NCBI GenBank assembly: GCA_028683835.1
Contig: JAQUHB010000027.1
Location: 1 to 34,744 of the forward strand
Direction of reading: 5' to 3'
Source: Sulfurimonadaceae bacterium
GTDB lineage: Bacteria > Campylobacterota > Campylobacteria > Campylobacterales > Sulfurimonadaceae
Length of the DNA stretch: 34,744 bases
Shown: positions 1,328-32,147 of the stretch, in pieces
How positions within the stretch are numbered: the first letter of the stretch is position 1
Layout: every line of letters begins with the position of its first letter
The notes under the pieces: model-generated
Databases searched by the model: none
What the model was told of the DNA's origin: nothing
The model's input: the letters and a program-made list of their open reading frames with translations, nothing else
Translations under genes and position numbers: made by a program

Positions 1328-2305
1328 ATGAACACTCAAACCTATACAATCCAAAATGAACAAAGATTAGACAGTTTTTTGACAGAGCAGATCGGTCAAA
1401 CTCGTTCTCAAATAGTACAACTCATCAAACAAAATGCCGTTAGCGTTGATGGAAAGGTCCTTTCAAGGCCAGGGGTCAAGTTAAAAGCTGGTCAACAAGT
1501 AATTGTTATTTTTCCAGAAGCGAAAGAAACTCGTCCTCAAAAAATAGATTTTGATGTAGAAATTCTTTATGAAGATAACGACTTGCTCGTTATTAATAAA
1601 CCCTCTGGACTCACCGTTCACCCTGCCCCAAGCGTGAAAGAACCGACACTTGTAGACTGGCTTAAACACAGAGGTATCAGACTCTCAACTATAAGTGGTG
1701 AAGAGCGTCACGGAATTGTTCATAGACTTGACAAAGGCACTAGCGGAGCCATGGTTATCGCAAAGACAAACGAAGCTCACGAAGCTCTCTCTTTACAGCT
1801 TCAAGACAAAACAATGGGAAGATATTATCTTGCTATCTCAACGCCACCACTTAAAGATGATATTACAGTTGTTGAGGGATCTATTGCTAGAAGTTCTCAC
1901 AACCGCCTTAAAATGGCAATACTTTCACATGGAAAATCTGCAAAAACAGAGTTCAAAAAGACACTTTTAAGTCTTGATGAGAGCTGTGAATTATTAACAT
2001 GTAAGCTTTTTACAGGCCGAACTCATCAGATACGTGTTCACTTAGAAAAACTCAACCGTCATATTATCGGCGATCATTTGTATGGTACGAAAGAGAAAAA
2101 AGAGAAATCGGAACATATTTTGCTACATGCTTACTTACTGTACTTTATCCATCCAACTACGAAAAATACGGAGTCTTTCATTGCTCCATTAGATAAAGAT
2201 ATGTTACAATTTATAGAAAAAAACTTTGATATGGAGAATTTTAATGAAACTATTAAACCTGATAACATTAAGCTCGGTTTTAGCGCTTCTTTTGAGCGGA
2301 TGTAA
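1328..2305 (+). CDS. rluD: RluA/RluD-family 23S rRNA pseudouridine synthase
   Basis: Converts specific uridines of large-subunit rRNA to pseudouridine. An S4 RNA-binding domain covers about residues 10-70. The catalytic domain follows, with HRLDKGTSG at 132-140 (catalytic Asp135), the conserved GRTHQIRVHL at 230-239 and GDHLYG at 248-253. The 325 aa length is normal for RluD. The Shine-Dalgarno is weak (AAAGG about 13 nt upstream of the ATG). The gene opens a six-gene operon, and its last 62 nt overlap the next gene. In C. jejuni the homologue also precedes flpA and trmB. RluD rather than RluB/RluC is inferred from the S4 domain plus overall layout, so the exact target uridines are not certain. 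Confidence 0.85.
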   Translation: MNTQTYTIQNEQRLDSFLTEQIGQTRSQIVQLIKQNAVSVDGKVLSRPGVKLKAGQQVIVIFPEAKETRPQKIDFDVEILYEDNDLLVINKPSGLTVHPAPSVKEPTLVDWLKHRGIRLSTISGEERHGIVHRLDKGTSGAMVIAKTNEAHEALSLQLQDKTMGRYYLAISTPPLKDDITVVEGSIARSSHNRLKMAILSHGKSAKTEFKKTLLSLDESCELLTCKLFTGRTHQIRVHLEKLNRHIIGDHLYGTKEKKEKSEHILLHAYLLYFIHPTTKNTESFIAPLDKDMLQFIEKNFDMENFNETIKPDNIKLGFSASFERM

Positions 2306-8068: not shown

Positions 8069-9264
8069 TGAAACTCCATATATTTTTTATATATCCACAG
8101 ATAATAAAGAGAACTGAGAAAAAATGCACCTGAGAGATAAACAACTATCCATTCAAGCGAAAGACCGATTTTTGCCAGCTCTCCTGTGATTAAAGCTGTC
8201 AAAGCGGCAACTAAAAGAAAGATCATATCATTATATGCGACGATCCTTCCATAATAATTTTTATCTGTTTTATGCTGAATAAGTGTATAACTATAAGACC
8301 AAAGTGTTGTTGTAAAAAAACCAACTAAGATAGAAGCCACAAGAGAAAGATAAAAATATTTCATTACTGCTGCCCAGATAAGTAAAGCAATACCCTGAAA
8401 AATAAAAATATAAAAAAGTCGCTTATCATTTATCCATTTTGCCAAAAACATCGGACCAATAACAAGCCCAACTGCGCGAGATGCATGAATTAATCCCAAA
8501 GCAAGAGCTGTTGCAATAACACTAGAATAATATTTATCAACCATCAGTGCGACAAGTGCATCATAAGAGGTAAGCCCCACAAGGGAATGGATTAACATAA
8601 AATGCAATATATGTTTATTCTCTTTGAGATATATAAACGTTTTTTGTATCATTTTCATGATAGATTCACCTGACTTACTAATACTTACATGTAAAGGTGT
8701 TCCAACTAAAAGAAACCAACCAATCAAAAAAAGTGACCCATCTAAAATAAAAGCCACTTTGACCCCGAGAAGATATACAACAAAACCGCTAATCGCCATA
8801 CCAACTGTGTATGAAAAAGACCAGATAATCGAGTGGATCTCATTTGCTTGTCTGAGTACACTATGATTAAGAATTTTCGGTAGAAGTGACATTTCTGCTG
8901 TAAAATAAAAACTCGCTGCACCCATTCTGATAAAAATAAGAAGATATAAAATCCACAAGTAAGAATGGTCATTTACTAAAAGTAGAGAGAAGGTAGAAAA
9001 AATTTCAATTGACAACAAAAAAAGCATCAACTTTTTTGGATCAAGCCTATCTATGAGTGTTCCACTTATAGGAGCTTGAATCACTCCGGGAATAAAATAA
9101 AGTGCTGCGACAAACGCAATAACACCTGCTGAGACATGCATCTCAATTAAAAGAGTATAGATGGCAACATTGCTAAACCAAGCACCAAAGTAGGAAATAA
9201 GCTGAATTAAAGTGAGGCGTCTGAGAACCTCTTCATTTTTTAATAACTGTATATACTGTTTCAT
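8065..9264 (-). CDS. MFS transporter, 12-helix exporter type
   Basis: A 399 aa major facilitator with about twelve hydrophobic helices. Motif A in the loop between helices 2 and 3 reads GTLIDRLDPKKLM (68-80), a DHA-type antiporter signature. The second half repeats a related loop (AKWINDKRLFY). Overall layout resembles the DHA3/EntS-like group that exports siderophores or drugs, but the substrate cannot be read from the sequence. The ATG at 9264 has no clear Shine-Dalgarno; a TGA-TACTAT extended -10 lies just upstream, so a very short leader is possible. It is first in a three-gene minus-strand unit divergent from flaG. Confidence 0.82.
   Translation of the reverse strand: MKQYIQLLKNEEVLRRLTLIQLISYFGAWFSNVAIYTLLIEMHVSAGVIAFVAALYFIPGVIQAPISGTLIDRLDPKKLMLFLLSIEIFSTFSLLLVNDHSYLWILYLLIFIRMGAASFYFTAEMSLLPKILNHSVLRQANEIHSIIWSFSYTVGMAISGFVVYLLGVKVAFILDGSLFLIGWFLLVGTPLHVSISKSGESIMKMIQKTFIYLKENKHILHFMLIHSLVGLTSYDALVALMVDKYYSSVIATALALGLIHASRAVGLVIGPMFLAKWINDKRLFYIFIFQGIALLIWAAVMKYFYLSLVASILVGFFTTTLWSYSYTLIQHKTDKNYYGRIVAYNDMIFLLVAALTALITGELAKIGLSLEWIVVYLSGAFFLSSLYYLWIYKKYMEFQ
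8684..8695 (-). repeat. TTTACATGTAAG repeat, copy 1
   Basis: Exact 12-base match on the minus strand, inside the MFS coding region. The palindromic core TTACATGTAA is at 8685-8694. Confidence 0.7.
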
Positions 9265-15692: not shown

Positions 15693-17228
15693 ATGAATTT
15701 AAAGAACAAGCAGAGTTTTACTAGCGTTATATCTGTTGACCCGTATAAGAGAGAATATTTTAAAGGTATATCGAGTCATCTCGAAAGAGAACTAGATCCT
15801 ACGTATTCAAAAACTCAGTATGTGCTCTCTTATCTTGGTGCAAAAAGTTTTATTAGTTCTCTGATAAGCGTTAGTAAAAACATACCAGAAGACGATTTAC
15901 CTGACATTATAGAAAATAAGGTTTATGAAGATCTTGCTCTTGATATGGCAATATCTTATAAGATAAGCTATATAGAGGCATACAATAATATTGATGAAAC
16001 AAATCGCTTCTTTCATGTTTTTGTTGTAGACCCGCTTACGCTAGATGAAGATTTTCAATACGTTATAGAAGATATAAAATATATAGATCAGATTGTACCT
16101 GTTGCACTTTTGTTAAAAACTCTTTATACGAAAGAGATTCTTGATAATAATAGTGTAGACTGTTTTATATATTTACAAGAAAATGACGCTTTTTTAACTA
16201 TCTATAGTGACAGTGAATTTATATATACAAAATCTATAAAATTTTCTCTCACAGAACTGCATCAACGCTTTTGCGAACTACTTGGTGAACAGATTTCTCT
16301 TCAACTATTTTCACAGCTCTTATCTACCGAAGGTTTAGCCACTTCAAATAAAGAGTACCAACAGCATCTTATTAAACTGTTTTCTGAAACTTTTGTACAT
16401 ATCAATGATGTTTTGACGTATGTAAAAAGAGCATTTGAAATAGAAAAAATTGACCATATCTATATTGGAAGTGAACTTGGTAAGATTGCTGGTCTTGACG
16501 AATATTCACAAACGTATTTAGCTATAAAATCAAGTGAATTTGATTTTAACTATGGATACACCACTGAGCAAAATCATTTAAATCAACTCCATGCATTAAT
16601 GCATTTATATACGACTATGCCAAGTACCCAAAGATACGAATGTAATTTTTCTATATTTCATAGACCACCTCCTTTCACAAAAAGAGAAAGTGGTAAGTTT
16701 ATTTTACTGACTTCTGCTGCATTAGCGATCAGCTTACTTTATCCCATTGTAAATTGGTCACTCTCTTATGCTGAAACTATTAGATATTCCATGCTAAACC
16801 AAGATTATACTTCTGTACACCCTATTAAAATGACACGAGAAGCGACTATCAACTTAAAAGAAAAACAAAAACTGGAAGCTGATAATATTAAAAAAGCAGA
16901 AGAAAATGAATATAATAATAAGAAAAATACCCTTATTAAAATTCATGAAGTCAAAGTAAATTATCCTATGAAGGCAAAGCATTTAACATACTTGACTAAA
17001 GATCTTAATAAATACTCAGTTATGCTGACAAATATTGCCTATGACGAAAATGAAAGTAATAAAACATTTGTCTTTTCACTTAGTTCAACAAGTGATAAAA
17101 AGATCACGGAACTTCTTGAGTATCTAACGAAAACCAAAACTGATACATACAAATTTTCTCTCCAACATATTGATTTTGATGAAAAAGAGAAAAGTTATAT
17201 TAGTGAATTGAAGGTAAAATTATTATGA
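15693..17228 (+). CDS. PilM-PilN type fusion, first gene of the transformation (Cts) operon
   Basis: 511 aa. Residues 1-320 are soluble, with alternating strands and helices resembling the actin-like PilM/MshI fold (CFIYLQENDAFLTIYSDSEF, HIYIGSELGKIAGL). A single membrane helix lies at about 336-357. It is followed by a Lys/Glu-rich coiled coil (about 385-420) and a C-terminal alpha/beta domain of PilN/GspL type (430-511). In most type IV pilus systems PilM (cytoplasmic) and PilN (inner membrane) are separate; here one chain seems to cover both. The assignment is by layout and by the PilO-like gene that follows with an ATGA overlap, not by strong motifs. AGGTGG stands 4 nt before the ATG. The role would be inner-membrane alignment of the DNA-uptake machine. 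Confidence 0.68.
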   Translation: MNLKNKQSFTSVISVDPYKREYFKGISSHLERELDPTYSKTQYVLSYLGAKSFISSLISVSKNIPEDDLPDIIENKVYEDLALDMAISYKISYIEAYNNIDETNRFFHVFVVDPLTLDEDFQYVIEDIKYIDQIVPVALLLKTLYTKEILDNNSVDCFIYLQENDAFLTIYSDSEFIYTKSIKFSLTELHQRFCELLGEQISLQLFSQLLSTEGLATSNKEYQQHLIKLFSETFVHINDVLTYVKRAFEIEKIDHIYIGSELGKIAGLDEYSQTYLAIKSSEFDFNYGYTTEQNHLNQLHALMHLYTTMPSTQRYECNFSIFHRPPPFTKRESGKFILLTSAALAISLLYPIVNWSLSYAETIRYSMLNQDYTSVHPIKMTREATINLKEKQKLEADNIKKAEENEYNNKKNTLIKIHEVKVNYPMKAKHLTYLTKDLNKYSVMLTNIAYDENESNKTFVFSLSSTSDKKITELLEYLTKTKTDTYKFSLQHIDFDEKEKSYISELKVKLL

Positions 17229-17854
17229 AAACAAACATCGAAGACTACCTTTATAAAATAGACCATATAATGGGTCAAAAATCTAAAAAAGATCTGTACC
17301 TTATTTATGTAATGATATTTTGCTCTATTCTTGGAATGTCGTATAGCACGTTATTTGATCCTTCCAAAAAAGCATTTGACGATGAGCATGCTAAAGCCGA
17401 GCAAATGCAGGTGACACTCAATGTAGATAAAAATTATCTCACTGCAAATCCTGAAACAAAAATTGTTCAAATTGATCAAGATATCAAATCTCTGCAAGAT
17501 CAATATGGAATGTTCAAAGATGATAATAAGTATATTATAGAACAGATACAAAAGATATCTTCCTTATACTATAATGAAAAAGTTTGGGGACAGTATCTTA
17601 ATTCAATCTCCCAAAATGCAAAAAAATATAATTTAAAAGTGCTTAATTTTAGTAATAGTTATGAAACTAATAGTTCTGGATTCGGACATGTATTAGATAT
17701 TCATGTAAAAGTAGATGGAAGTTATAAAAACACTTTAAAATTCATCAACTCAATAGAACAAAGCTTTTTAGTTGTAGATTTACATGATTTTACTATGAAA
17801 GCAGACAAAAAACTATATACAGATCTCAATATATCAGTATGGGGGATTAACTAA
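17225..17854 (+). CDS. PilO-like inner-membrane alignment protein
   Basis: 209 aa: a short cytoplasmic N-terminus, one membrane helix (about 24-43), a coiled coil (about 50-115), and a C-terminal ferredoxin-like domain with a typical PilO stretch, DGSYKNTLKFINSIEQS, then strands ending in LNISVWGIN. PilO/GspM proteins pair with PilN to link the inner membrane to the secretin pilot. Overlaps the preceding gene by ATGA and is followed after one base by the next, so it is firmly within the operon. Confidence 0.72.
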   Translation: MKTNIEDYLYKIDHIMGQKSKKDLYLIYVMIFCSILGMSYSTLFDPSKKAFDDEHAKAEQMQVTLNVDKNYLTANPETKIVQIDQDIKSLQDQYGMFKDDNKYIIEQIQKISSLYYNEKVWGQYLNSISQNAKKYNLKVLNFSNSYETNSSGFGHVLDIHVKVDGSYKNTLKFINSIEQSFLVVDLHDFTMKADKKLYTDLNISVWGIN

Positions 17855-17855
17855 G

Positions 17856-18329
17856 ATGAAAAATATAATCTCAATACTTGGTTTAGTGGTTATCACCTCA
17901 GTTGTTTTGGCTGATGTGACACCAATGGATATAAATCAAGCACATACCAGCGAACTTGGCTGGGTTGATGAGCAAATAAAGGCTATTATTCCTTCAAGAA
18001 TAGGAATATCTGATCAAGAAATAAATTCACTCGCAGAACCATTCAAATTTAAGCGTGACATAAATGCGAGTGCAAGTGATCTTAGTAAATATTTTTCTTT
18101 AAAATCACATAAGGCTGCTATAGCAATACCAAAACCACCATTAACTGTTACTTTAATAATAAATAAAAAAGCGTTTATTAGTAAGAAATGGTATCAGGTT
18201 GGCGATACAGTAGATGGTTACACTGTAAAATCTGTTGAAAGTTCGTCTGTAACACTTGCTAATAAAAAAGGCGTAAAAGTTTTATCAATTAAATCTGATA
18301 ATTTAAATCTAAAAATTAAAACCAAGTAG
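17856..18329 (+). CDS. Periplasmic PilP/GspC-HR-like protein (position of CtsR)
   Basis: 157 aa with a cleavable signal peptide (about 1-19, VVLA). The C-terminal 55 residues form the compact all-beta pattern of PilP, MshK and GspC HR domains: LTVTLIINKKAFISKKWYQV, then GDTVDGYTVKSVESSSVTL, ending with a basic strand VLSIKSDNLNLKIKTK. Such proteins bind the N0 domain of the secretin. It lies directly before the secretin gene, as ctsR does before ctsD in C. jejuni; orthology with CtsR is positional inference. No strong Shine-Dalgarno is seen (GGGG 8 to 11 nt upstream). Confidence 0.68.
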   Translation: MKNIISILGLVVITSVVLADVTPMDINQAHTSELGWVDEQIKAIIPSRIGISDQEINSLAEPFKFKRDINASASDLSKYFSLKSHKAAIAIPKPPLTVTLIINKKAFISKKWYQVGDTVDGYTVKSVESSSVTLANKKGVKVLSIKSDNLNLKIKTK

Positions 18330-18339
18330 GAACAATAAT

Positions 18340-19989
18340 ATGAAAACACAATATCAAAATATATTAAAAACTTCAGTTGTAAGTACGGTGGCAGCACTTA
18401 TGTTATCTACTTCTGCTTGGGCAGATTGTACATATGAGTTATTTAATATAGGCTCAGCAAAAGGTACAAAAATTGCAGATTTTATTGATCAACTAAGTGA
18501 TGAGTGTGAATTTAGTGTTGTTGTCACTGATTCTCAGGCCGAACAAATACTTAACTCTGCTCTCAACAAAACACATATCAAGAATCTTACAATCAATGAA
18601 GTGCTTGACTTAATCTTGTCGCAGAACAATCTCAGTTATACTCTTGAAAACAATACGTTAAGAATATCTTATTTAGAGACTAAAGTTTTTAATATCGATT
18701 ATATTCTTTCACAAAGAAAAGGAGTTGGTAGTACCGATGTCACTTTAAGTTCTGCATCCACTACTACAACAAGCAGTACTGGTACAACAGGAAATACTGG
18801 TACAACAGGTAGTTCTACATCTGGTTCGACAGGAACTGGGACATCTCCTTCAACTGCAAATTCTGGAATTAAAATTGAATCAACTGATGAAGTTATATTT
18901 TGGTCACAACTTGATACTGAACTTGGAAGTATTTTAAATAGACCGGAAGATAAATATATAGCAAAGGCGCCGGTAATCAATAAAAATGCGGGACTTATCA
19001 CAGTAACTGGAACAAAAACACAAATAGATAGACTCGGCAATTACATCAAAAAACTTCAAGAAAAAGTAAAACTTCAAGTTCTTATGGATGTACAAATTTT
19101 AACTGTTACAATGAGTAAATCAAAAAGTACTGGTATAGATTGGTCACAACTTTATAAGTTACAAAATGGCTCATTGGGATTAAATTATGTAAGCTCTAAT
19201 AATGTTGTCGATGGAACATTTGCTGGTAAGGATTCAACTATAACAACTATAGGGGATGGAGCTAAAAAAGCTGCCAATTTGTTTACAGTACAAGCTGGAG
19301 GTAGCTTAGATCAAGTTATCAAGTTCTTAAAAACTCAAGGAAATGTAAGTTCTATCTCTAATCCAAAAGTACTAACACTCAACAATCAACCAGCACTTGT
19401 GACTGCCGGAACAGAGTATTTCTATACATTAAAATCATCTACGAGCACAACAGGTACTGCGACTACAACAGCAGAAAATGACACTATTAGTTCTGTTTTT
19501 GCTGGAGTACTTTTAGATATTACACCTGAAATTTCAGATAAAGATATGATTACACTCAAGATAAATCCATCTCTTTCAGAAACAACAACTGATATGTCAG
19601 CTACTACCTCAGCTAGTAGGACAACTCCGCCAGACTTAAATAGAAGACAACTTTCTTCTGTGGTAACTGTAAAAGATGGAAATAGAATTATCTTAGGTGG
19701 TCTAATCCAAACAAGTACAAATAAATCGGGTAATAAAATTCCTCTTTTAGGAGATATTCCAGGTCTTAGCTACCTCTTTGGACGTGATGAAGATTCTAAA
19801 CAGATTCAAGAGCTTGTTATTGTTATAGAGCCACATATTATACGTACAGGTAAATCAAATCCTTCACTTTCTGATTTAGGATATGAAGGGATAGGTGATG
19901 CTCTTCTCCAACACGGAGCTACTTCCGGCCAAATAGACAAAGACAATGAAATTGCTCAAAAAAAGATTAAAGCGAGGGATAATGAGTAA
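18340..19989 (+). CDS. ctsD: Secretin of the transformation system (MshL/PilQ type, CtsD-like)
   Basis: 549 aa outer-membrane pore for DNA entry. A signal peptide (1-28, ending in SAWA) is followed by an N0/STN-type domain (about 32-115). A low-complexity linker of Ser, Thr and Gly runs about 137-172. A second N domain (about 180-245) leads into the secretin domain (about 245-505), which contains SISNPKVLTLNNQPALVTAG and the hallmark GNKIPLLGDIPGLSYLFG followed by ELVIVIEPHII. The short N-terminal region and linker resemble MshL more than PilQ. The linker DNA contains a tandem 18-base repeat. AGGAAC precedes the ATG. In C. jejuni the equivalent gene is needed for transformation. Confidence 0.88.
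   Translation: MKTQYQNILKTSVVSTVAALMLSTSAWADCTYELFNIGSAKGTKIADFIDQLSDECEFSVVVTDSQAEQILNSALNKTHIKNLTINEVLDLILSQNNLSYTLENNTLRISYLETKVFNIDYILSQRKGVGSTDVTLSSASTTTTSSTGTTGNTGTTGSSTSGSTGTGTSPSTANSGIKIESTDEVIFWSQLDTELGSILNRPEDKYIAKAPVINKNAGLITVTGTKTQIDRLGNYIKKLQEKVKLQVLMDVQILTVTMSKSKSTGIDWSQLYKLQNGSLGLNYVSSNNVVDGTFAGKDSTITTIGDGAKKAANLFTVQAGGSLDQVIKFLKTQGNVSSISNPKVLTLNNQPALVTAGTEYFYTLKSSTSTTGTATTTAENDTISSVFAGVLLDITPEISDKDMITLKINPSLSETTTDMSATTSASRTTPPDLNRRQLSSVVTVKDGNRIILGGLIQTSTNKSGNKIPLLGDIPGLSYLFGRDEDSKQIQELVIVIEPHIIRTGKSNPSLSDLGYEGIGDALLQHGATSGQIDKDNEIAQKKIKARDNE
18778..18813 (+). repeat. Tandem 18-base repeat in the secretin linker
   Basis: Two adjacent 18-base units, each beginning ACTGGTACAACAGG and differing in the last four positions, encode TGTTGN and TGTTGS. 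Flanking DNA also encodes S/T/G runs. The unit is a multiple of three, so expansion or contraction would change linker length without shifting the frame. Confidence 0.75.
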
Positions 19990-20797
19990 TCACCTAAGTA
20001 TTTATGAAAAACCTAAAATGGTTTTTCTTGATACTGTGGACGTAAAAAATTATGTTCATATGGATCGCTCCTCTGCAATTTATCAGTCACTCAAAGAAAC
20101 TGTTCAAAAACCTTTAAAAATGATTCTCTTATTTGGAAGACCGGGAACAGGCAAAAGTATGCTTCTTTCAAAGCTTTATAATGACCTCCTAAAAAAACAA
20201 AAAATTCATCTTTATAGTACACCATTACTAGATGAGAGTGAATTTTTCAAATCTTTAGCAGCTGATCTTTTTAATGTAAGGTATAACGGAGAACTCAATC
20301 TTACTCAATTCACGAAGATAGCAAAAAATTATCTTCACAATGAAGTTCCACTTATTTTACTTGATGAAGCACAACTTTATCCTCCTGAACTTATGGAAAA
20401 AATACGATTACTCTCTGATTCTAGGATTGTCAAATTCGTTATTGTCTTACATAAAACAGAAAAAGAAGATCTCATTGCAAAAGAGCATTTTCAGACAAGA
20501 ATATGGGAAAGTATTGAATTAGAAAATGCGCAAAGCAGTGAAATAAAAGCTTATATACAAAAGAAATTAATGAAAGAGAACTGTTTTGATATTGCAAATA
20601 TGTTTAGTGATAGCAGTGCAAATCTTATACACAAAATTACGAATGGTAATTATAGAGATACCAATAAACTTTTACACTCTGTCTTTGAAATTTATGAATG
20701 GTATGAAATCAATCAGCCATACAAGCTTGATAAAACAATGATTTCAAACAAAATAATTGAAATGGCTGGAATTTCAACAGGACTTTTAGATGCTTAA
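19982..20797 (+). CDS. ctsP: AAA ATPase of ExeA/MshM type (CtsP-like)
   Basis: 271 aa cytoplasmic P-loop ATPase. Walker A is GRPGTGKS (52-59), Walker B PLILLDEAQ (123-131), then a sensor-like strand KFVIVLHKTEKED, an FQTR arginine (about 173) and a helical C-terminal lid with NGNYRDTNKLLH. It has the ATPase half of ExeA/MshM without a peptidoglycan-binding domain. In C. jejuni CtsP is a membrane-associated ATPase required for transformation. The ATG at 19982 overlaps the secretin end, preceded by GAGGG; an earlier in-frame ATG at 19946 would add 12 basic residues and lacks support. Confidence 0.83.
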   Translation: MSNHLSIYEKPKMVFLDTVDVKNYVHMDRSSAIYQSLKETVQKPLKMILLFGRPGTGKSMLLSKLYNDLLKKQKIHLYSTPLLDESEFFKSLAADLFNVRYNGELNLTQFTKIAKNYLHNEVPLILLDEAQLYPPELMEKIRLLSDSRIVKFVIVLHKTEKEDLIAKEHFQTRIWESIELENAQSSEIKAYIQKKLMKENCFDIANMFSDSSANLIHKITNGNYRDTNKLLHSVFEIYEWYEINQPYKLDKTMISNKIIEMAGISTGLLDA

Positions 20798-21599
20798 TGT
20801 CCAAGAACTAGAAAGAAAATGGATAAAATATAAAATAAAATCTTATAGCTTAGTTATTTTATTATCTACTCTCTTTGTTATATTAATGTTGATTACAATT
20901 ATTTTTTATCCTGTACTTTTACATGTAAATGATAAAAATACTACATTCACAGCTCTTGAAGGCAATAAAACTACAGACTTCAATACCCCATTAAAAACAG
21001 CAGAAGCCAATATCAGTGATACTAATCTCTCTGAGGATAAAATGGTGTTACGTCCTTCACTCAGCTTTGTGGATAATATGGGTAATTCTGTCAATACTTA
21101 TTATAATGAGAGTCCAAACAGTATTCCTGAAACCAAAATTGAAGATGTTGTAGAACCTGAAATCAAACGTGTTCCAGAAAAGAAAGTTGTAGCAATAAAA
21201 GAACCACCTTTTCCCCTTTTAACTTCAAATAATGCTAGTGTAAATGCACCTATAAAAGAGGTTAAAGCGAAAAAAATAAACATTGAAATTCATAGTGCTG
21301 ATGATGATTTACAAGATGTTATAAAAAGATTTAAAAAAACAAACAATCCTACTCTTGGTCTTTTTCTTGCTAAAAGATATTATGATATGAAGCAATATAA
21401 CCTTGCTTACAACTATGCCCTTTTAACAAATCAGATAGATAGTAAAATTGATATGAGTTGGATAATTTTCACTAAATCCCTTGTAAAGCTTGGGCAAAAA
21501 GATAAGGCTGTAAATACTCTACAAACATATATAAAAGATTCTAATTCCAAACAAGCGGTAACTCTTCTAGAAGAAATAGAATCTGGACGTTTTAAATGA
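20790..21599 (+). CDS. Inner-membrane protein with periplasmic TPR-like domain (MshN/Cj1472-like position)
   Basis: 269 aa. Short basic cytoplasmic N-terminus, one membrane helix (about 20-44), a disordered Thr/Asn/Pro/Glu/Val-rich linker (about 48-165), and C-terminal helical repeats (about 170-265) of TPR character: LGLFLAKRYYDMKQYNLAYN, then SWIIFTKSLVKLGQKDKAVN. This is the shape of MshN and of the protein encoded between ctsP and ctsE in C. jejuni. It overlaps ctsP by 8 nt and the next gene by ATGA. A scaffold role in the uptake complex is inference. One copy of the TTACATGTAA palindrome lies in the region encoding residues just after the membrane helix. Confidence 0.7.
   Translation: MLNVQELERKWIKYKIKSYSLVILLSTLFVILMLITIIFYPVLLHVNDKNTTFTALEGNKTTDFNTPLKTAEANISDTNLSEDKMVLRPSLSFVDNMGNSVNTYYNESPNSIPETKIEDVVEPEIKRVPEKKVVAIKEPPFPLLTSNNASVNAPIKEVKAKKINIEIHSADDDLQDVIKRFKKTNNPTLGLFLAKRYYDMKQYNLAYNYALLTNQIDSKIDMSWIIFTKSLVKLGQKDKAVNTLQTYIKDSNSKQAVTLLEEIESGRFK
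20919..20928 (+). repeat. TTACATGTAA palindrome, copy 2
   Basis: Exact 10-base palindrome inside the TPR-protein gene, flanked by T and A, so it matches 11 of 12 positions of the extended motif. Confidence 0.6.
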
Positions 21600-22141
21600 A
21601 ATTTCTAGTCATTTTTGTATCATTAGCCATACTTTTACTTGCAAACGAACGGCAAGATATATTTAGTTTATATCAGCTTAAGGAATATGATAAAGCATGT
21701 CAATTAGGTTTAATCAACTTAAATAAGAATAGAAAAGATGAAAATTTCGTATCTATTTATGCCTTTTCCTGCCTTAATGCAGATTATATTGATAGATTAA
21801 GCGTACCTATCACACTTTTAAAAAATACACCGGAATCTCGTTCAAATGCAGCATATTTATCTGTCATCCTTATGCAAAAAAAAATTTTAGAACACTCTTT
21901 AAATGATGAGTATTACCTTAAACCGTTAAAAATTCCGACAACTGACAATCTCCTTTCTAAGGTATTTGATCTTTATTCTAATCTCTCTATACTAAAAAAG
22001 ATTCCGGTATACGAATTTATTGATCCAAATAATGCTAAAATAAGATACAGGCTCTATCTGATCGGTGATAGGAACTCTAACAATATTGTTATTGAAGAAT
22101 TTTATGAGTCGGTCTTAGTCAAAAAGCATATTTATAGATAA
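21596..22141 (+). CDS. Small exported protein of the transformation operon, unknown function
   Basis: 181 aa with an N-terminal signal peptide (about 1-16), hence periplasmic or membrane-attached. The mature part begins with helical repeats (FSLYQLKEYDKACQLGLINL, a TPR-like pair, with two cysteines at about 36 and 59 that could form a disulfide) and ends in a beta-rich part with RYRLYLIGDRNSNNIVIEEF. I do not recognise a family. ATGA overlap with the preceding gene and a 19-nt gap to the PilB-type ATPase place it in the same transcript. Confidence 0.7.
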   Translation: MKFLVIFVSLAILLLANERQDIFSLYQLKEYDKACQLGLINLNKNRKDENFVSIYAFSCLNADYIDRLSVPITLLKNTPESRSNAAYLSVILMQKKILEHSLNDEYYLKPLKIPTTDNLLSKVFDLYSNLSILKKIPVYEFIDPNNAKIRYRLYLIGDRNSNNIVIEEFYESVLVKKHIYR

Positions 22142-22159
22142 GTTTAGGAAGTAGCGAAT

Positions 22160-23896
22160 ATGGATAGAATAACATTAGATTTATTGACACAAAACCATAT
22201 TACCCAGAGACAAATTGACAGACTTGTGTCACGTGGAGTAAATGAGGATACTGTTTTATATACACTCATAAAAGTGGGTGCTGTTTCAATTAATTTTATC
22301 AAAAGATTTATAGTAGAGCAAATTAGAACAGGAAAATATAGCCTCAGTATTTTAAAAAATTATCCATTTATCAAAGAATCTGAAGTTTTGCAAGCTCTTG
22401 CAGAAATTTTACATATTGGTTATTTGGATTTAGATTCTATTGATATGGATTATAAACTAGCTGAAAAAGTGCCTCTTAATCAATTGAAAAAATATAATGT
22501 TCTCCCTATTACACAGGATGAACTCAATATTATTGTAGTTTTTGAAGATCCATTCAATATAGAAGCTCAAGAAGCTATACAAAGAAGTTTCCCAAAAAAA
22601 TTGCTTAAAGTTCATCTTGCCACATCAAGACAGATACAAGAATATCTCTTTAAAATTGCTCTTAAAGACAGTGTAAAAGAACTTGTCACAAACATTAGAA
22701 CTGAATTACGAACCATTGGCAGTATAGAAGAACAGCAAGAAGCATCTTCAATCCTTCAGCTCATCGATGTCATACTCAATGCCTGTATCAAAAGTAGAGC
22801 TAGTGATGTCCATGTCGAACCAACTGAAAAAAACTGTGTGGTACGTACGCGTATAGATGGCAAACTAAGTGAAATTTTCATTTTTGACAAAGATATTTAT
22901 CCTCCTCTTGCTTCACGTCTCAAACTTTTGGCCAATTTGGATATTGCAGAGAAAAGAAAACCTCAAGATGGTCGTTTTTCTGCAACCTTGAATGCAAAAG
23001 AATTTGATTTTCGTATCTCAACTTTGCCAATACTCTACGGAGAATCTATCGTTATGCGTATCTTAGATAAAACTAAAGCGCTTGTAAAACTTGAAGATGC
23101 AGGAATGGATACTGTAAGTTATAATAAATTACTACAAGGTTTGTCTTCTCCCTTTGGAATTATTTTAGTCACTGGACCTACCGGTTCAGGAAAGACGACC
23201 ACACTCTATGGTGCTTTAAATGAACTCCGAAATGTTGAAGACAAAGTAATTACGGTCGAAGATCCTGTTGAGTATAGAATGAATCTTATTCAACAAGTTC
23301 AAGTTAATGCGCCTGTCGGACTCACTTTTGCAACAGCCTTGCGCTCTATTTTACGCCAAGATCCTGATAAAATCATGATCGGTGAGATTCGTGACCAGGA
23401 AACGCTCGAGATTGCAATAAAAGCTGCTTTGACGGGGCACCTTGTTATCTCTACACTACATACAAATGACTCTATCAGTGCAATTCCTCGTATGATAGAT
23501 ATGGGAATAGAACCTTACTTGATAAGTGGCGCACTTGTAACCGTTCAAGCACAAAGACTAGTGAGAAAGATTTGTCCAAACTGTAAAACTGCAGCTATCA
23601 TCCCAGAATCTTCTCTAGAACCATACCGACATATGGTTCCAAAAGATACGATCTTTTATGTTGGTGAAGGGTGTGCAGAGTGTAATGGAACTGGGTACAT
23701 GGGACGTGAAATGATTTGTGAAGTACTTCCTATCACTGAAAAATTATCAAGTATGATCGCAAAAGGTGCGTCAAAAGAGGATATACACAAACAAGCAGTG
23801 ACAGAGGGCTTTATGGGTATGTTTGAAAATGGAATGCAAAAAGCCATAAATGGTATAACAACATTCGAAGAGATATTAAGGGCGGCTAAAGGATGA
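22160..23896 (+). CDS. ctsE: PilB/GspE-type assembly ATPase (CtsE-like)
   Basis: 578 aa hexameric ATPase that drives pseudopilus assembly at the inner membrane. The N-terminal MshEN/T2SSE_N-type domain covers about 60-165. The core has SDVHVEPTE (215-223), Walker A GPTGSGKTT (339-347), Asp box TVEDPVEYR (365-373), Walker B IMIGEIRDQET (405-415) and the His box TGHLVISTLHTND (425-437). A tetracysteine zinc site is present (C472PNC475 and C505AEC508). Length and zinc site indicate an assembly ATPase, not the PilT retraction ATPase. The ATGA overlap couples it to the platform gene. Confidence 0.93.
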   Translation: MDRITLDLLTQNHITQRQIDRLVSRGVNEDTVLYTLIKVGAVSINFIKRFIVEQIRTGKYSLSILKNYPFIKESEVLQALAEILHIGYLDLDSIDMDYKLAEKVPLNQLKKYNVLPITQDELNIIVVFEDPFNIEAQEAIQRSFPKKLLKVHLATSRQIQEYLFKIALKDSVKELVTNIRTELRTIGSIEEQQEASSILQLIDVILNACIKSRASDVHVEPTEKNCVVRTRIDGKLSEIFIFDKDIYPPLASRLKLLANLDIAEKRKPQDGRFSATLNAKEFDFRISTLPILYGESIVMRILDKTKALVKLEDAGMDTVSYNKLLQGLSSPFGIILVTGPTGSGKTTTLYGALNELRNVEDKVITVEDPVEYRMNLIQQVQVNAPVGLTFATALRSILRQDPDKIMIGEIRDQETLEIAIKAALTGHLVISTLHTNDSISAIPRMIDMGIEPYLISGALVTVQAQRLVRKICPNCKTAAIIPESSLEPYRHMVPKDTIFYVGEGCAECNGTGYMGREMICEVLPITEKLSSMIAKGASKEDIHKQAVTEGFMGMFENGMQKAINGITTFEEILRAAKG

Positions 23897-25140
23897 CTTA
23901 TTTTATTGCAACAGTTCTTTCCAAAGGAAAGAAGGAAGATTATGGCTATTATGCGGAAACAAAAAAAGAAGCGCATTACCTTGCAAAAATTAAATTTTCT
24001 GGGATAATTATCAAGGTCGCTGAATCAGAGCCTCCTTTGGAGGAAAAATTTAAGCAATTTAAAGCAAGTTTGACTAAAAACATGCGAAAGAAAAAGATAA
24101 AACAAGATGCTCTCATCGCATCAACAAGACAACTTGCTGTAATGACAAATGCGGGAATCCCAATAAATGATTCAATAAAAGAAATTGCACGTTCTGCGAG
24201 TGATAATAGCTTAAAAGATATTTTTCTCTCTATTGCAGATGATATTAACTCTGGTCATAGTTTATCTCATGCAATGGGTAATTATCGCTTTGAACTTGGT
24301 AATCTAACACTTGCCATGATCGAACTTGGAGAAAAAACGGGAAATGTCGCAGATGCGCTATATTCACTTTCAAATATGCTTGAAGAGATACGTGCAAACG
24401 TTATCAAGTTTAAAAAAGCAATGGCATATCCAAGAAATGTTATGATAGCCATGGCAATTGCCTTTACAATACTTATCTCATATGTTGTACCAAAATTTAA
24501 AGCGATTTTTGAACAACTTCATGCAGAGCTACCTCTACCTACCATCATACTTTTAAAACTAGAATATATATTTAATAACTTTGGACCTTATGTTTTAGCT
24601 GCTCTTTTCATCTCTTTTATGATTTTTAGATTTATGATTAATAACTATAGAAACGTGAGATATAACTTTCACAAATTTTTACTTAAAATCTACCTGATTA
24701 AAAATATCATTATGTATGCTACTTTAAGTAGATTTACACTTGTATTTGCTGAACTAATACGTGCTGGTATCCCTATAGCAGAAGCTTTAGATACTTCTAT
24801 ATCTATGGTTGATAACCTCCCGCTTAAAGATAAACTTTCTAGTGTTAGAGCGACTGTAGAAAAAGGTGGAAATCTTCACAACGGACTTAAAGAAACCGAT
24901 CTTTTTGAAAATATGATTATTCAGATGGTTTCAGCAGGTGAATCAAGTGGACAGCTAGATTCAATGATGCAAAAAGTTGCAGAGTATTATAAAATGAAGT
25001 TTGATGCTATCATAGATGGACTAGCAGAAGCAGTAGAACCGATCATGCTAATTATCATCGCATCTATGGTACTTTTACTTGCTCTTGGTATTTTCTTACC
25101 GATGTGGAATCTGGGTCAAGCTGTCAACGGGAGTCATTAA
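23893..25140 (+). CDS. ctsF: PilC/GspF-type inner-membrane platform protein (CtsF-like)
   Basis: 415 aa with two GspF domains (about 75-195 and 278-400), each with the family pattern: LAVMTNAGIPINDSIKEIAR then MIELGEKTGNVADAL, and FAELIRAGIPIAEALDTSIS then MVSAGESSGQLDSMM. Three membrane helices are visible (about 182-200, 233-250, 382-404). It forms the rotor-like base on which the pilin fibre is assembled by the PilB-type ATPase. Last gene of the nine-gene operon, followed 11 nt after its stop by a hairpin terminator built from two uptake-like repeats. Confidence 0.93.
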   Translation: MTYFIATVLSKGKKEDYGYYAETKKEAHYLAKIKFSGIIIKVAESEPPLEEKFKQFKASLTKNMRKKKIKQDALIASTRQLAVMTNAGIPINDSIKEIARSASDNSLKDIFLSIADDINSGHSLSHAMGNYRFELGNLTLAMIELGEKTGNVADALYSLSNMLEEIRANVIKFKKAMAYPRNVMIAMAIAFTILISYVVPKFKAIFEQLHAELPLPTIILLKLEYIFNNFGPYVLAALFISFMIFRFMINNYRNVRYNFHKFLLKIYLIKNIIMYATLSRFTLVFAELIRAGIPIAEALDTSISMVDNLPLKDKLSSVRATVEKGGNLHNGLKETDLFENMIIQMVSAGESSGQLDSMMQKVAEYYKMKFDAIIDGLAEAVEPIMLIIIASMVLLLALGIFLPMWNLGQAVNGSH

Positions 25141-25150
25141 GAAAATTTTG

Positions 25151-25182
25151 TTTACATGTAAGAAAAAAAACTTACATGTAAT
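25151..25182. terminator. Bidirectional hairpin terminator made of two TTACATGTAA repeats
   Basis: Between the convergent ctsF and helicase genes an 11-base perfect stem, TTACATGTAAG (25152-25162) and CTTACATGTAA (25171-25181), encloses a loop of eight A. Each arm is itself a palindromic copy of the repeat; the left arm is the exact 12-mer TTTACATGTAAG. The gap is only 46 nt, so this is the terminator for both directions. It lacks a long T run, so efficiency is uncertain. Confidence 0.72.
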
Positions 25183-25186
25183 AAAC

Positions 25187-27271
25187 CTATGCTTCCTCCT
25201 CTTTTGAACCTTTTTTTACCAATTTTTTATAATTTTCGTCCATCTCAATAAGCCCAGCTTCATATAAAAACTGTGAAGCCACAAAATCTATTTTCTTGAT
25301 CTTGTCATATTTTGCAAAACTGAGATACAGCATATCTTTGGCTCTTGTTACAGAAACATAAAAAAGACGACGTTCTTCTTCAATATTGCCACCTCTTGCC
25401 ATCAATTTTCTATTTGGAAATCTTCCATCCATCAGATCAATAACATAAACCTCTTTGTATTCCAAACCTTTGGACGCATGGATACTCAAAAGATGAACAC
25501 CCTCACCTTGCGTTAGATCCTGCGAGCCTAAAATCATCGCATTTAAAAATCTTTCATGCTCTTTGTATGGCTTTGAAAGTTCTTCCAAAAGTGCAGCTTT
25601 TCTTGTAATTCTGATCTTTGCTTCACTCTCTTGCTTCTCATCTATAGAACCATCTTTTTGCTGTGCTCTTTTTTGCGCAAGATGGGTAATAATCATCTTA
25701 TAAAGTTCAGACTCACCCATTTTTTTCACTATTGTACGAGGCTGTTTTATCCCTTTTAAATCACGAAAAAGTTGATAAAAAAGATGTAAAAAAGTCGCAC
25801 CTTCTTTTGTCAATTTTGGATGTTTTAACACTGCATTTCTTAAAAACTTCTCTTCAAATCCGAGCTTTGCAAAGCGCCCTATTGCACCGAGTTCTAAAAA
25901 ATCATCAAATAATCCAAGCTGATGATTAAGCGTTCTTTTTTCAAAAGGATTTGAAATAGCACTATCAGGGGCATAGAGTCCATAAAACATTGAACCGTTG
26001 CCAAGGGTTTTGAGGGCTGTATAAATCTCTTTTGCCATTGAAGTTCCCACCCCTTTGGCATATTCAAAGAGATGGATAAAAGCCATCATATCAGACTCAT
26101 TGACAAGAAGTGTATAAAGATCAAGAAGCACTTTTATCTCTTTTGAATCAAAAAAACTTGTCCCTCCCTTACGTCTACATGCAATACCAAGCTCCTTTAA
26201 AGCCACTTCTATCCCATCTGCTGAGGAGTTATTTCTAAAGATAACAGCGATCTCTTCACGAGCAGTCATAGAATCACGAATCGATGCAGCGATCCCATGA
26301 TATTGATCAAAAAGTTCATCATAAGTAATAAGTTTTGGAAGCTGTGCACTTGGTGCCGTTCTTGTAAACTCCAAAGCTTTTGGATAAATACGTTCATTAT
26401 ATGAGATTACTTTATTTGCAAGGGAAAGAATAGGAACTGTTGAACGATAATTTTTATTGAGTGTAAAAACTTTTGCATCATTAAATTTTTTATCGAAATT
26501 TCCTATGATCGAAATATCTGCTCCATTAAATGCATAAATACTCTGATCGTAATCACCAACACAAAAAAGAGAATCAGGGTTCATCGCATCTATTAGCGTT
26601 CCTTGCAGGGCATTTGTATCTTGGTACTCATCAACAAGAACCTCTTTATATCCTAAATGCTTACTTTTACAAAGATCTCTCATCTTTATAAGCAAATCAT
26701 TGAAGTTTAAGAAACCATACTGGATTTTTAAGGACTCAAACTCGTCTACGATATCCGCATAAATCATTGAATATGTCTCATGTTCCCTTTGATTTTGCTT
26801 GATCCAAGTCTCAAAATCAAGAGCCATTTCCGTGTTTTGATAAAAAGAGTACAAATCATAGAGATAATTCGCTCCATAAGCGGAAGTCTCAGCGTCAATA
26901 TGAGTAAAACTACGCTTATCATGTACACTACGAAAAAGAGTTTTAAGCTCGCGTTGCTGTTTTAAGACCACTCTTTTATCCTCTTTTTTAAGCCATCGAT
27001 AACTAACGGCGTGAAAAGTTCCAGCGTCTATCTTTGTAGCAATCTCATTCCCAAAATATTGTGCGACACGCTCAACCATCTCCGCTGCAGCTTTATTTGT
27101 AAAGGTGAGCAGAAGGATCTCTTGAGGCTTAACGCCATTACTTAAAAGATGACCAATACGTCCTACAATAGTAGATGTTTTTCCCGTTCCTGCAGAGGCA
27201 ATAATAAGATTATGTCCAAATTCTGCTGTGGCTGCTGAGAGTTGCTGATCATTGAGGCGTGAAAGAGGCAA
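25187..27271 (-). CDS. UvrD/Rep/PcrA-type superfamily 1 DNA helicase
   Basis: 694 aa 3'-5' DNA helicase with all SF1 motifs in order: motif I ASAGTGKT (25-32), Ia TFTNKAAAEM, II VLVDEYQDTNALQ, III VGDYDQSIYAFNGAD, IV NKNYRST, V LLSIHASKGLEYKEV and VI YVSVTRAKDML. It probably acts in nucleotide excision or replication restart, or by clearing RecA. A short lysine-rich C-terminal tail replaces the Tudor domain seen in many UvrD/PcrA proteins. It lies 54 nt downstream of fliW on the same strand and may share its transcript; in C. jejuni a homologous helicase gene is also near valS. Confidence 0.92.
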   Translation of the reverse strand: MPLSRLNDQQLSAATAEFGHNLIIASAGTGKTSTIVGRIGHLLSNGVKPQEILLLTFTNKAAAEMVERVAQYFGNEIATKIDAGTFHAVSYRWLKKEDKRVVLKQQRELKTLFRSVHDKRSFTHIDAETSAYGANYLYDLYSFYQNTEMALDFETWIKQNQREHETYSMIYADIVDEFESLKIQYGFLNFNDLLIKMRDLCKSKHLGYKEVLVDEYQDTNALQGTLIDAMNPDSLFCVGDYDQSIYAFNGADISIIGNFDKKFNDAKVFTLNKNYRSTVPILSLANKVISYNERIYPKALEFTRTAPSAQLPKLITYDELFDQYHGIAASIRDSMTAREEIAVIFRNNSSADGIEVALKELGIACRRKGGTSFFDSKEIKVLLDLYTLLVNESDMMAFIHLFEYAKGVGTSMAKEIYTALKTLGNGSMFYGLYAPDSAISNPFEKRTLNHQLGLFDDFLELGAIGRFAKLGFEEKFLRNAVLKHPKLTKEGATFLHLFYQLFRDLKGIKQPRTIVKKMGESELYKMIITHLAQKRAQQKDGSIDEKQESEAKIRITRKAALLEELSKPYKEHERFLNAMILGSQDLTQGEGVHLLSIHASKGLEYKEVYVIDLMDGRFPNRKLMARGGNIEEERRLFYVSVTRAKDMLYLSFAKYDKIKKIDFVASQFLYEAGLIEMDENYKKLVKKGSKEEEA

Positions 27272-27766: not shown

Positions 27767-27808
27767 AAATACAGAGCCTTGCATGTAAGGATAGTTTCAC
27801 ATCACTTT

Positions 27809-30554: not shown

Positions 30555-32099
30555 TTGTTTGATATAAGAAAATACGACACTTCCAATCTCAAAAATGATC
30601 TACTGTCAGGACTTGTCGTGGCTGTCGCTTTAGTTCCTGAAGCAATTGCATTTGCTTTTATCGTCGATGTCAGTCCTATTGTCGGGCTTTATACCGCTTT
30701 TATCTTAGGTCTTATCACGGCTCTTTTTGGTGGAAAACCGGGGATGATAAGCGGTGCGACTGGTTCAGTTGCCGTTGTCTTGGTCGGTCTTGCTTTAGAA
30801 GCAAAAGCGCTTTTGATCTCTCAAGGTGCAAGCAATAACGCCCTCGCCTTTGGAATTATGCAGTACATCACACTTGCGGCTGTCATGACGGGAGTTTTTC
30901 AGATTTTAGCTGGTGTGCTTAAGCTTGGTAAATTTATCCGTTTAGTACCGCTTCCTGCCATTTACGGTTTTGTCAATGGTCTTGCAATCGTCATTGCAAT
31001 GGCGCAGTTCAAGTTTTTTCACTCAAACGACACAGCGATGTTTGTGCTTGTCCTTATCACGATGGCGATCATGTTTTTTCTTCCAAAACTCACAAAAGCT
31101 ATGCCCTCAGGACTCATCGCTATCATCACGCTTACTTTAGGCGTTTACTTCTTACATGTAAACACTATGCTTGTCGGCGATATGGCGAATCTGAGCGCAT
31201 TTAAAGGACAACTACCCACCTTTCATATTCCTGACACGATTTTGAGTCTTGAAGCGCTTCAAATGGTCTTGCCTTATGCCTTCATAGCCGCGATGGTCGG
31301 GCTTATAGAATCCCTTTTGACACTCTCAGTCCTTGATGAGATGAGCGATACAAGAGGCAGTGCGAACAAAGAGTGTATCGCTTTGGGTGCGGGCAATCTG
31401 ACATGTGGAATCTTCGGCGGAATGCCGGGATGCGCGATGATAGGTCAGTCTATCATCAACTTTACTTCCGGCGGTCTTGGGCGTCTTTCAGGTGTTACGG
31501 CGGCAATCGGGCTTATGATCCTTGTGACTTCTCTTACGGATACGCTCAATATCATCCCTATCGCTGTACTTGTTGGAATCATGTTTATGGTGAGTATCGG
31601 AACTTTTGAGTGGAGCAGTGTCTCTCGTTTGAAATATATGCCTAAAGAGGATGCTTTTATTGTCATCTCCGTCACTCTTATCACGGTTTTTTCAGATTTG
31701 GCAACTGCCGTTATCGCCGGAGTTATTATCTCAGCTCTTGTCTTTGCATGGAAACATGCACGTATCTCTGCAAAAGTCACTTTCACAGAAGATGGTACAA
31801 AGATCTACGAACTTGATGGTCCACTCTTCTTTGCTTCAACTGCCTCATTTATGGATATATTTGATGTCGAAAAAGATAGTGAAAGAGTGATCTTAGAGTT
31901 TAAAAATGCTCGTGTAATGGACTCTTCAGGTGTAGAAGCACTCAATGTGATTAGCAAAAAATATGAAGATGCCGGGAAGATTTTACAACTGCGTCATCTA
32001 AGCCGTGACTGTAAAGAATTACTTATGAAAGCTGGAAGACACTGCACATTTGTAGAAGCTGCCGATGATCCAAAATATAAAGTAGCTTACAACTATTAA
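30555..32099 (+). CDS. SulP (SLC26) family anion transporter with STAS domain
   Basis: 514 aa. About twelve to fourteen membrane segments (residues 15-405), beginning LLSGLVVAVALVPEAIAFAF and containing the SulP signature GLYTAFILGLITALFGGKPG and SGATGSVAVVLVG. The cytoplasmic STAS domain follows (about 415-500), with the conserved loop FKNARVMDSSGVEAL that carries the regulatory Ser. It probably carries sulfate, bicarbonate or another anion; the substrate is not readable. The start is a TTG at 30555 with AAAGG 8 nt upstream; no earlier ATG fits. G+C looks higher than in the neighbouring transformation operon. Confidence 0.9.
   Translation: MFDIRKYDTSNLKNDLLSGLVVAVALVPEAIAFAFIVDVSPIVGLYTAFILGLITALFGGKPGMISGATGSVAVVLVGLALEAKALLISQGASNNALAFGIMQYITLAAVMTGVFQILAGVLKLGKFIRLVPLPAIYGFVNGLAIVIAMAQFKFFHSNDTAMFVLVLITMAIMFFLPKLTKAMPSGLIAIITLTLGVYFLHVNTMLVGDMANLSAFKGQLPTFHIPDTILSLEALQMVLPYAFIAAMVGLIESLLTLSVLDEMSDTRGSANKECIALGAGNLTCGIFGGMPGCAMIGQSIINFTSGGLGRLSGVTAAIGLMILVTSLTDTLNIIPIAVLVGIMFMVSIGTFEWSSVSRLKYMPKEDAFIVISVTLITVFSDLATAVIAGVIISALVFAWKHARISAKVTFTEDGTKIYELDGPLFFASTASFMDIFDVEKDSERVILEFKNARVMDSSGVEALNVISKKYEDAGKILQLRHLSRDCKELLMKAGRHCTFVEAADDPKYKVAYNY
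31151..31162 (-). repeat. TTTACATGTAAG repeat, copy 5
   Basis: Exact 12-base match on the minus strand within the sulP coding region; palindromic core at 31152-31161. Copies 3 and 4 form the terminator at 25151-25182. Confidence 0.7.
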
Positions 32100-32106
32100 G
32101 TTCAAG

Positions 32107-32131
32107 GCTTTATGGATTTTATCCGTAAAGC
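32107..32131. terminator. Hairpin between convergent sulP and transglutaminase-like genes
   Basis: An 11-base stem (GCTTTATGGAT with ATCCGTAAAGC, one G-U pair) and a TTT loop lie 7 nt after the sulP stop. No T run follows, so it may act as a transcript end or processing site. A copy of the TTTACATGTAAG repeat starts two bases later. Confidence 0.5.
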
Positions 32132-32132
32132 T

Positions 32133-32144
32133 CTTACATGTAAA
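32133..32144 (-). repeat. TTTACATGTAAG repeat, copy 6
   Basis: Exact 12-base match on the minus strand in the 48-nt convergent gap between sulP and the transglutaminase-like gene; core at 32134-32143. Confidence 0.7.
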
Positions 32145-32147
32145 CTT

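Follow-up and report, generated by a model that had tools for sequence, protein, structure and literature searches.

The locus

The window analysed here, a stretch of 34,744 nucleotides, is contig C52 of a Sulfurimonadaceae genome of 2,511,249 bases in 88 contigs (G000, the 'own genome'). It harbours, as context only, a cts-type transformation operon (15693-25140, plus strand) with Pfam matches for a PilO-like protein, a secretin, an AAA ATPase, a TPR-like protein, T2SSE (CtsE) and T2SSF (CtsF). Between ctsF, which ends at 25140, and a gene for a UvrD-type helicase on the minus strand (25187-27271) is a convergent gap of 46 bases, in which two copies of the palindrome TTACATGTAA form an inverted pair (25151-25182): TTTACATGTAAG (25151-25162, plus strand) provides the left arm of a hairpin and ATTACATGTAAG (25171-25182, minus strand) the right arm. 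The hairpin (25147-25185, no strand assigned) folds at -12.4 kcal/mol (z -6.0) on the plus strand and at -12.9 kcal/mol (z -4.5) on the minus strand, in agreement with the initial annotation, which had read the pair as the terminator behind ctsF. Its equivalents in G013 and G018, two genomes of the same genus (g1), fold as well, and orthologous alignment places the motif behind ctsF in G013, G015 and G018, while it is gone in G019. Fold and alignment suggest that the hairpin is likely a bidirectional terminator.

All six exact copies of TTACATGTAA that had been listed for the window (8685, 20919, 25152, 25172, 31152 and 32134) were recovered. Apart from the hairpin arms, they are located within an MFS transporter gene (8684-8695, minus strand), within the TPR-like gene of the cts operon (TTTACATGTAAA, 20918-20929, no strand assigned; the orthologous site is conserved in G018), within a sulfate-permease-family gene (31151-31162, minus strand) and within the convergent gap 32100-32147 (32133-32144, minus strand). 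Both annotated near copies are likewise present, each with one mismatch: TTAACATGTAAG at 1994-2005 (plus strand) and CTTGCATGTAAG at 27778-27789 (no strand assigned), the orthologous position of the latter being a perfect TTACATGTAA in G015 and G018. A seventh core, the core-only copy TACATGTA, resides within the ribosomal protein L9 gene (12314-12321, no strand assigned). Individual sites are gained and lost among orthologous positions; the copy at 31152, for example, is missing from those of G013 and G019.

A symmetric motif spread over the genome

Six copies in the window compare with 0.07 expected from dinucleotide shuffles, none of 100 of which reached six. Across G000, TTACATGTAA occurs 321 times and its reversed control once, which is far from expectation, and the 12-mer TTTACATGTAAG occurs 123 times (59 on the plus and 64 on the minus strand), with a count of 0 for its reversed control. 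In 400 kb of G000, TTACATGTAA is the top over-represented 10-mer (61 sites versus 0.6 expected from a Markov model of 4-letter words), and it ranks first among over-represented 10-mers in all sampled carriers of the T dialect, G021 with its 50% GC among them. Proximity to the cts operon, which the initial annotation had pointed out, is incidental, the sites being spread genome-wide.

The same annotation had considered the motif directional. Four copies in the window (8684, 25151, 31151 and 32133) do share the 12-mer, but not in one orientation: 25151 lies on the plus strand and the other three on the minus strand. Among the 61 sites in 400 kb of G000, the outer base of a half-site is C in 60% and T in 29%, and the flank pairs CC, CT and TT were encountered 19, 25 and 3 times when independence of the half-sites predicts 21.8, 20.9 and 5.0; the mixed form is without excess in G018 and G021 as well. 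Because the flanks of its two halves vary independently, TTACATGTAA is a true palindrome, the T..G flanks are a chance pairing of two half-site preferences, and the directional 12-mer TTTACATGTAAG is ruled out as an entity, being a symmetric site with C on one flank and T on the other. No 12-mer is stronger than the complete palindrome CTTACATGTAAG. The half-site reads S-Y-T-T-A-C-A (consensus SYTTACATGTAARS, core TACATGTA), and A seldom occupies its two outermost positions, whether the site is genic or intergenic. The excess of ACATGT falls mostly within TACATGTA, and the eight inner bases therefore constitute the hard core of a symmetric footprint of about 14-16 bp. We make no claim for AT-rich outer flanks of the Haemophilus USS type: intergenic sites have them, whereas they are faint or lacking at genic ones and in G021. 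A literature search for TTACATGTAA or TACATGTA yielded no description in the papers covered. Taken together, the counts and the half-site statistics establish TTACATGTAA as a genome-wide palindromic DNA signal in some Campylobacterales lineages.

Placement in genes and in convergent gaps

As noted earlier for the window, copies reside both inside genes and in convergent gaps. About 70% of the G000 sites are genic, and the enrichment is thus not limited to promoters; per kb, however, sites are denser in intergenic DNA, most of all in convergent gaps, which carry 4.2 sites in G000, 5.5 in G018 and 7.1 in the other g1 genomes, versus 0.1-0.3 in genes. Hairpin pairs, defined as two cores with 4-18 bases between them, exceed expectation (in brackets) throughout the g1 genomes counted, with 18 (1.9) in G000, 32 (2.5) in G013, 37 (3.8) in G015 and 38 (8.3) in G018, and also outside Sulfurimonadaceae, with 48 (14.9) in G457, 50 (7.0) in G380 and 49 (13.1) in G526; controls in genomes with such an excess amount to 0-1. 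Inverted pairs at gene ends are present in g1, while families f10 and f3 are known from pair counts alone. Motif pairs have hence been re-used as terminator-like hairpins.

A different picture emerges for G085, G094 and G102 (Sulfurimonas, T dialect), in which 92 of the 96 sampled sites are genic, none was found across 6 kb of convergent gaps, and 2, 8 and 8 pairs compare with 2.6, 3.1 and 3.5 expected, that is, weak enrichment at most. In the S. autotrophica-like clade (samples L067-L070, L084-L096 and L192-L194) the motif is commoner in genes than between them, the opposite of the own genus. These observations bear on the suggestion that the motif serves a global transcription regulator as its operator, or acts as a terminator and nothing else. 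The terminator-like pairs in convergent gaps are clear, yet they represent a minor share next to hundreds of unpaired genic single copies, and the S. autotrophica-like clade has none in 6 kb of such gaps; among the explanations weighed here, we give this one the least credence.

A site for chromosome organisation or segregation, of the matS, Noc or parS type and bound by a dimeric nucleoid protein, would account for the symmetric footprint and for the spread of sites over the entire chromosome of G094. Known sites of these types number tens, however, whereas the motif reaches up to 1,700 copies that are mainly genic and without obvious regional clustering, and we consider such a role improbable. 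On contig C1 of G094, the mixed-flank 12-mer is mostly on the plus strand at 0.95-1.63 Mb, mostly on the minus strand beyond and mixed before, a pattern which is probably due to strand composition bias.

Distribution and dialects

With carriers called from the core count versus the reversed control, about 40 of the 228 Sulfurimonadaceae genomes carry the motif, namely g8, g10, g11, part of g16 and all eight genomes of the own genus g1, among which G019 is a weak carrier; the other genera of the family and most of g16 are at or near control. Probable identities are Sulfuricurvum for g15, Sulfurimonas for g16 and the Sulfurospirillum family for f10. Sampling across the class added most of the f10 genera g39, g55 and g59 (maximum 1,727 core copies) and two genera of f3 (1,480 copies in G526 and 246 in G515) as carriers, with hardly any beyond Sulfurimonadaceae, f10 and f3. 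Carriers possess roughly 100-1,700 copies per genome, versus 0-75 for reversed controls. The distribution is patchy, in that close relatives of carriers are without the motif. Within g1 itself, G018 has 1,151 core copies and G019 has 99, and this pair is a clean natural contrast for locating the responsible gene.

While the core is constant, the flanks vary by lineage (TTACATGTAA versus TCTACATGTAGA). G098 uses TCTACATGTAGA, G087 and G091 have C and T mixed at the dialect position, and the dialect of the f3 carriers is TTACATGTAA, which they also pair, for example as TACATGTAAGGATTTTTTCCTTACATGTA. That dialects differ between species of one genus argues, along with the palindrome being without direction, against a bidirectional Chi-like site for recombination or nuclease control, which we deem very improbable even though the frequency is within the Chi range and the location is genic. 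Known Chi sites are asymmetric. An example is GCTGGTGG (PMC1939737).

Other words are over-represented too. In non-carrier Sulfurimonas (G200, L218-L221; G092, L214-L217) these are the non-palindromic TAGATGCT and CAGATGCT, the former occurring 49 times versus 11.5 in G200, and they might constitute another signal that replaces the palindrome in non-carriers. Many family members, whether carriers or not, are enriched in CTCTTTTG and CAAAAGAG words, which could represent a Chi-like or codon-related signal; TCCTCTTTT is found 10 times in the window versus 1.1 expected.

A force acting on the DNA

Translated within genes, the core mostly yields Leu-His-Val or x-Thr-Cys, and the proteins concerned are unrelated. 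Carriers contain 3-6 times more LHV tripeptides than expected (74 versus 17.9 in G000, 32 versus 5.2 in G018, 23 versus 7.1 in G021 and 68 versus 15.2 in G085, G094 and G102), compared with 2-3 (5-8 expected) in non-carriers. Between 61 and 91% of the carrier tripeptides are spelled TTACATGTA, and the motif has therefore altered protein sequences. The motif is evidently held at high copy number by a force at the level of DNA that overrides protein sequence.

Copies with one inner mismatch are numerous and transition-rich in G000 (74 versus 18.5 expected, an excess of 0.83 per perfect copy), from which we infer mutational decay of the signal there, and are nearly nil in G018, G013, G015, G085, G094 and G102. 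We do not use this scarcity as proof of a special drive, because the one-mismatch ratios published for USS and HIP1 vary widely between reports (PMC1939737).

Both core-free 20-kb samples (L092 in G102 and L204 in G087) consist of polysaccharide biosynthesis genes, and a gap of 15.7 kb without cores in G000, defence-like in content, encodes a non-specific nuclease, an NA37-type nucleoid protein and an AAA_21/AbiEii-like protein. These site deserts are island-like, a pattern that would follow from new acquisitions arriving without the motif, although three stretches are a small sample; a shortage of sites in islands is compatible with any force that takes time to act.

Competence genes and methyltransferases

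A CtsF match was obtained for 219 of the 228 family genomes, every carrier of the family included, and ComEC for all 63 of the tested genomes that are at least 90% complete, carriers and non-carriers. The nine family genomes without a CtsF match are all non-carriers, but a single one reaches 90% completeness, which makes relatives lacking cts a weak test. With CtsF and ComEC nearly universal, also among non-carriers, competence genes were rejected as a discriminator; competence is compatible with the motif without discriminating carriers.

Methyltransferases were counted as three families, MethyltransfD12 (PF02086), N6_N4_Mtase (PF01555) and the C5 DNA_methylase (PF00145), with type I, gamma-class and EcoRI-type enzymes outside the count. 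The complete carriers G085 (611 cores) and G094 (694 cores) have no match to any of the three, and several further carriers are without one or two. Hence, an orphan methyltransferase from these families is rejected, none of them being universal among carriers. For restriction avoidance or protection of CATG, there was no signal specific to carriers: CATG is overall mildly avoided, in both carriers and non-carriers, while the motif is enriched.

These results bear directly on HIP1 (GCGATCGC) of cyanobacteria, which exhibits dyad-keeping extensions, lineage derivatives and patchy loss among relatives, and accompanies Dam-like and CGATCG methyltransferases (PMC4390886). Our motif resembles it as a genome-wide over-represented, perfect palindrome with symmetric extensions, derivatives and patchy loss of its own (PMC4390886), its density of copies reaches into the lower HIP1 range, and its sites are mostly genic. 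It is unlike HIP1 in sequence and phylum, in the hairpin pairs in convergent gaps of the own genus, and in that two complete carriers are devoid of Dam-type, N6/N4-type and C5-type methyltransferases; since G085 and G094 are without all three families, a HIP1-style partner of those kinds is unneeded. A highly iterated palindrome of this kind, serving DNA modification, repair or another intracellular process and not uptake, appears to us the main rival explanation, though a rather unlikely one. To our knowledge, HIP1, the best-known iterated palindrome, is still without an agreed function.

Discussion

Uptake signals that rely on sequence have been described chiefly in two bacterial families, and DUS and USS are over-represented in non-coding DNA. 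We know of no DUS or USS that is palindromic. Both have been described as non-palindromic (PMC1939737), and are often arranged as inverted repeats acting as terminators (PMC12616744). Our motif shares with the DUS of Neisseriaceae (PMC3630211) and the USS of Pasteurellaceae (PMC12616744) the hundreds to thousands of copies, the dialects around a constant core, the inverted terminator-like pairs, the competence genes in carriers and the absence of sites from some island-like DNA. The arrangement likened in the initial annotation to that of DUS and USS hence stands with respect to hairpin pairs, dialects, genic location and site-free stretches, and falls with respect to direction, the motif being a palindrome; moreover, the intergenic preference is missing in one clade. 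A further comparison is provided by C. jejuni, whose DNA uptake requires the methylated palindrome RAATTY (PMC10046745, PMC8468864): phylum, kind of uptake machine with ComEC, and palindromic nature of the recognition sequence agree, but RAATTY is short and methylation-dependent, whereas TTACATGTAA is long and strongly enriched. The motif thus comes closest to DUS/USS by its organisation and to HIP1 by its symmetry, and we file it under neither because one defining feature of each fails as tested.

As a single mechanism, we tentatively favour, with somewhat less than even confidence, that the motif is a palindromic self-DNA uptake signal. The maintaining force would then be the preferential acquisition of self DNA in natural transformation: the Cts machine would include a putative receptor for DNA, probably periplasmic or resembling a pilin, that binds the palindrome by recognising its dyad or, in whichever orientation, a single half-site, and DNA bearing the motif would be taken up and recombined more frequently, such that copies accumulate. 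A lineage in which this receptor changed or was lost might then move to another dialect, as with CTACATGTAG in G098, or be depleted of copies, as G019 and, in part, G000 would be. Besides the palindromic form, two observations speak against a role in uptake. Non-carriers share cts and comEC, so that competence genes fail to predict the motif, and the S. autotrophica-like clade has it almost only in genes, with pairs at most weakly enriched.

It is conceivable, and we say so with more reserve still, that TTACATGTAA gives Campylobacterota their first uptake signal for self DNA that is based on sequence, and that no palindromic DUS precedes it anywhere; it would have dialects and be independent of Dam-type, N6/N4-type and C5-type methyltransferases. 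The bacteria concerned are free-living and culturable, and the palindrome strongly enriched in them differs in presence between close relatives and is divided into dialects. The contrast between carriers and non-carriers makes the question of what maintains iterated palindromes testable.
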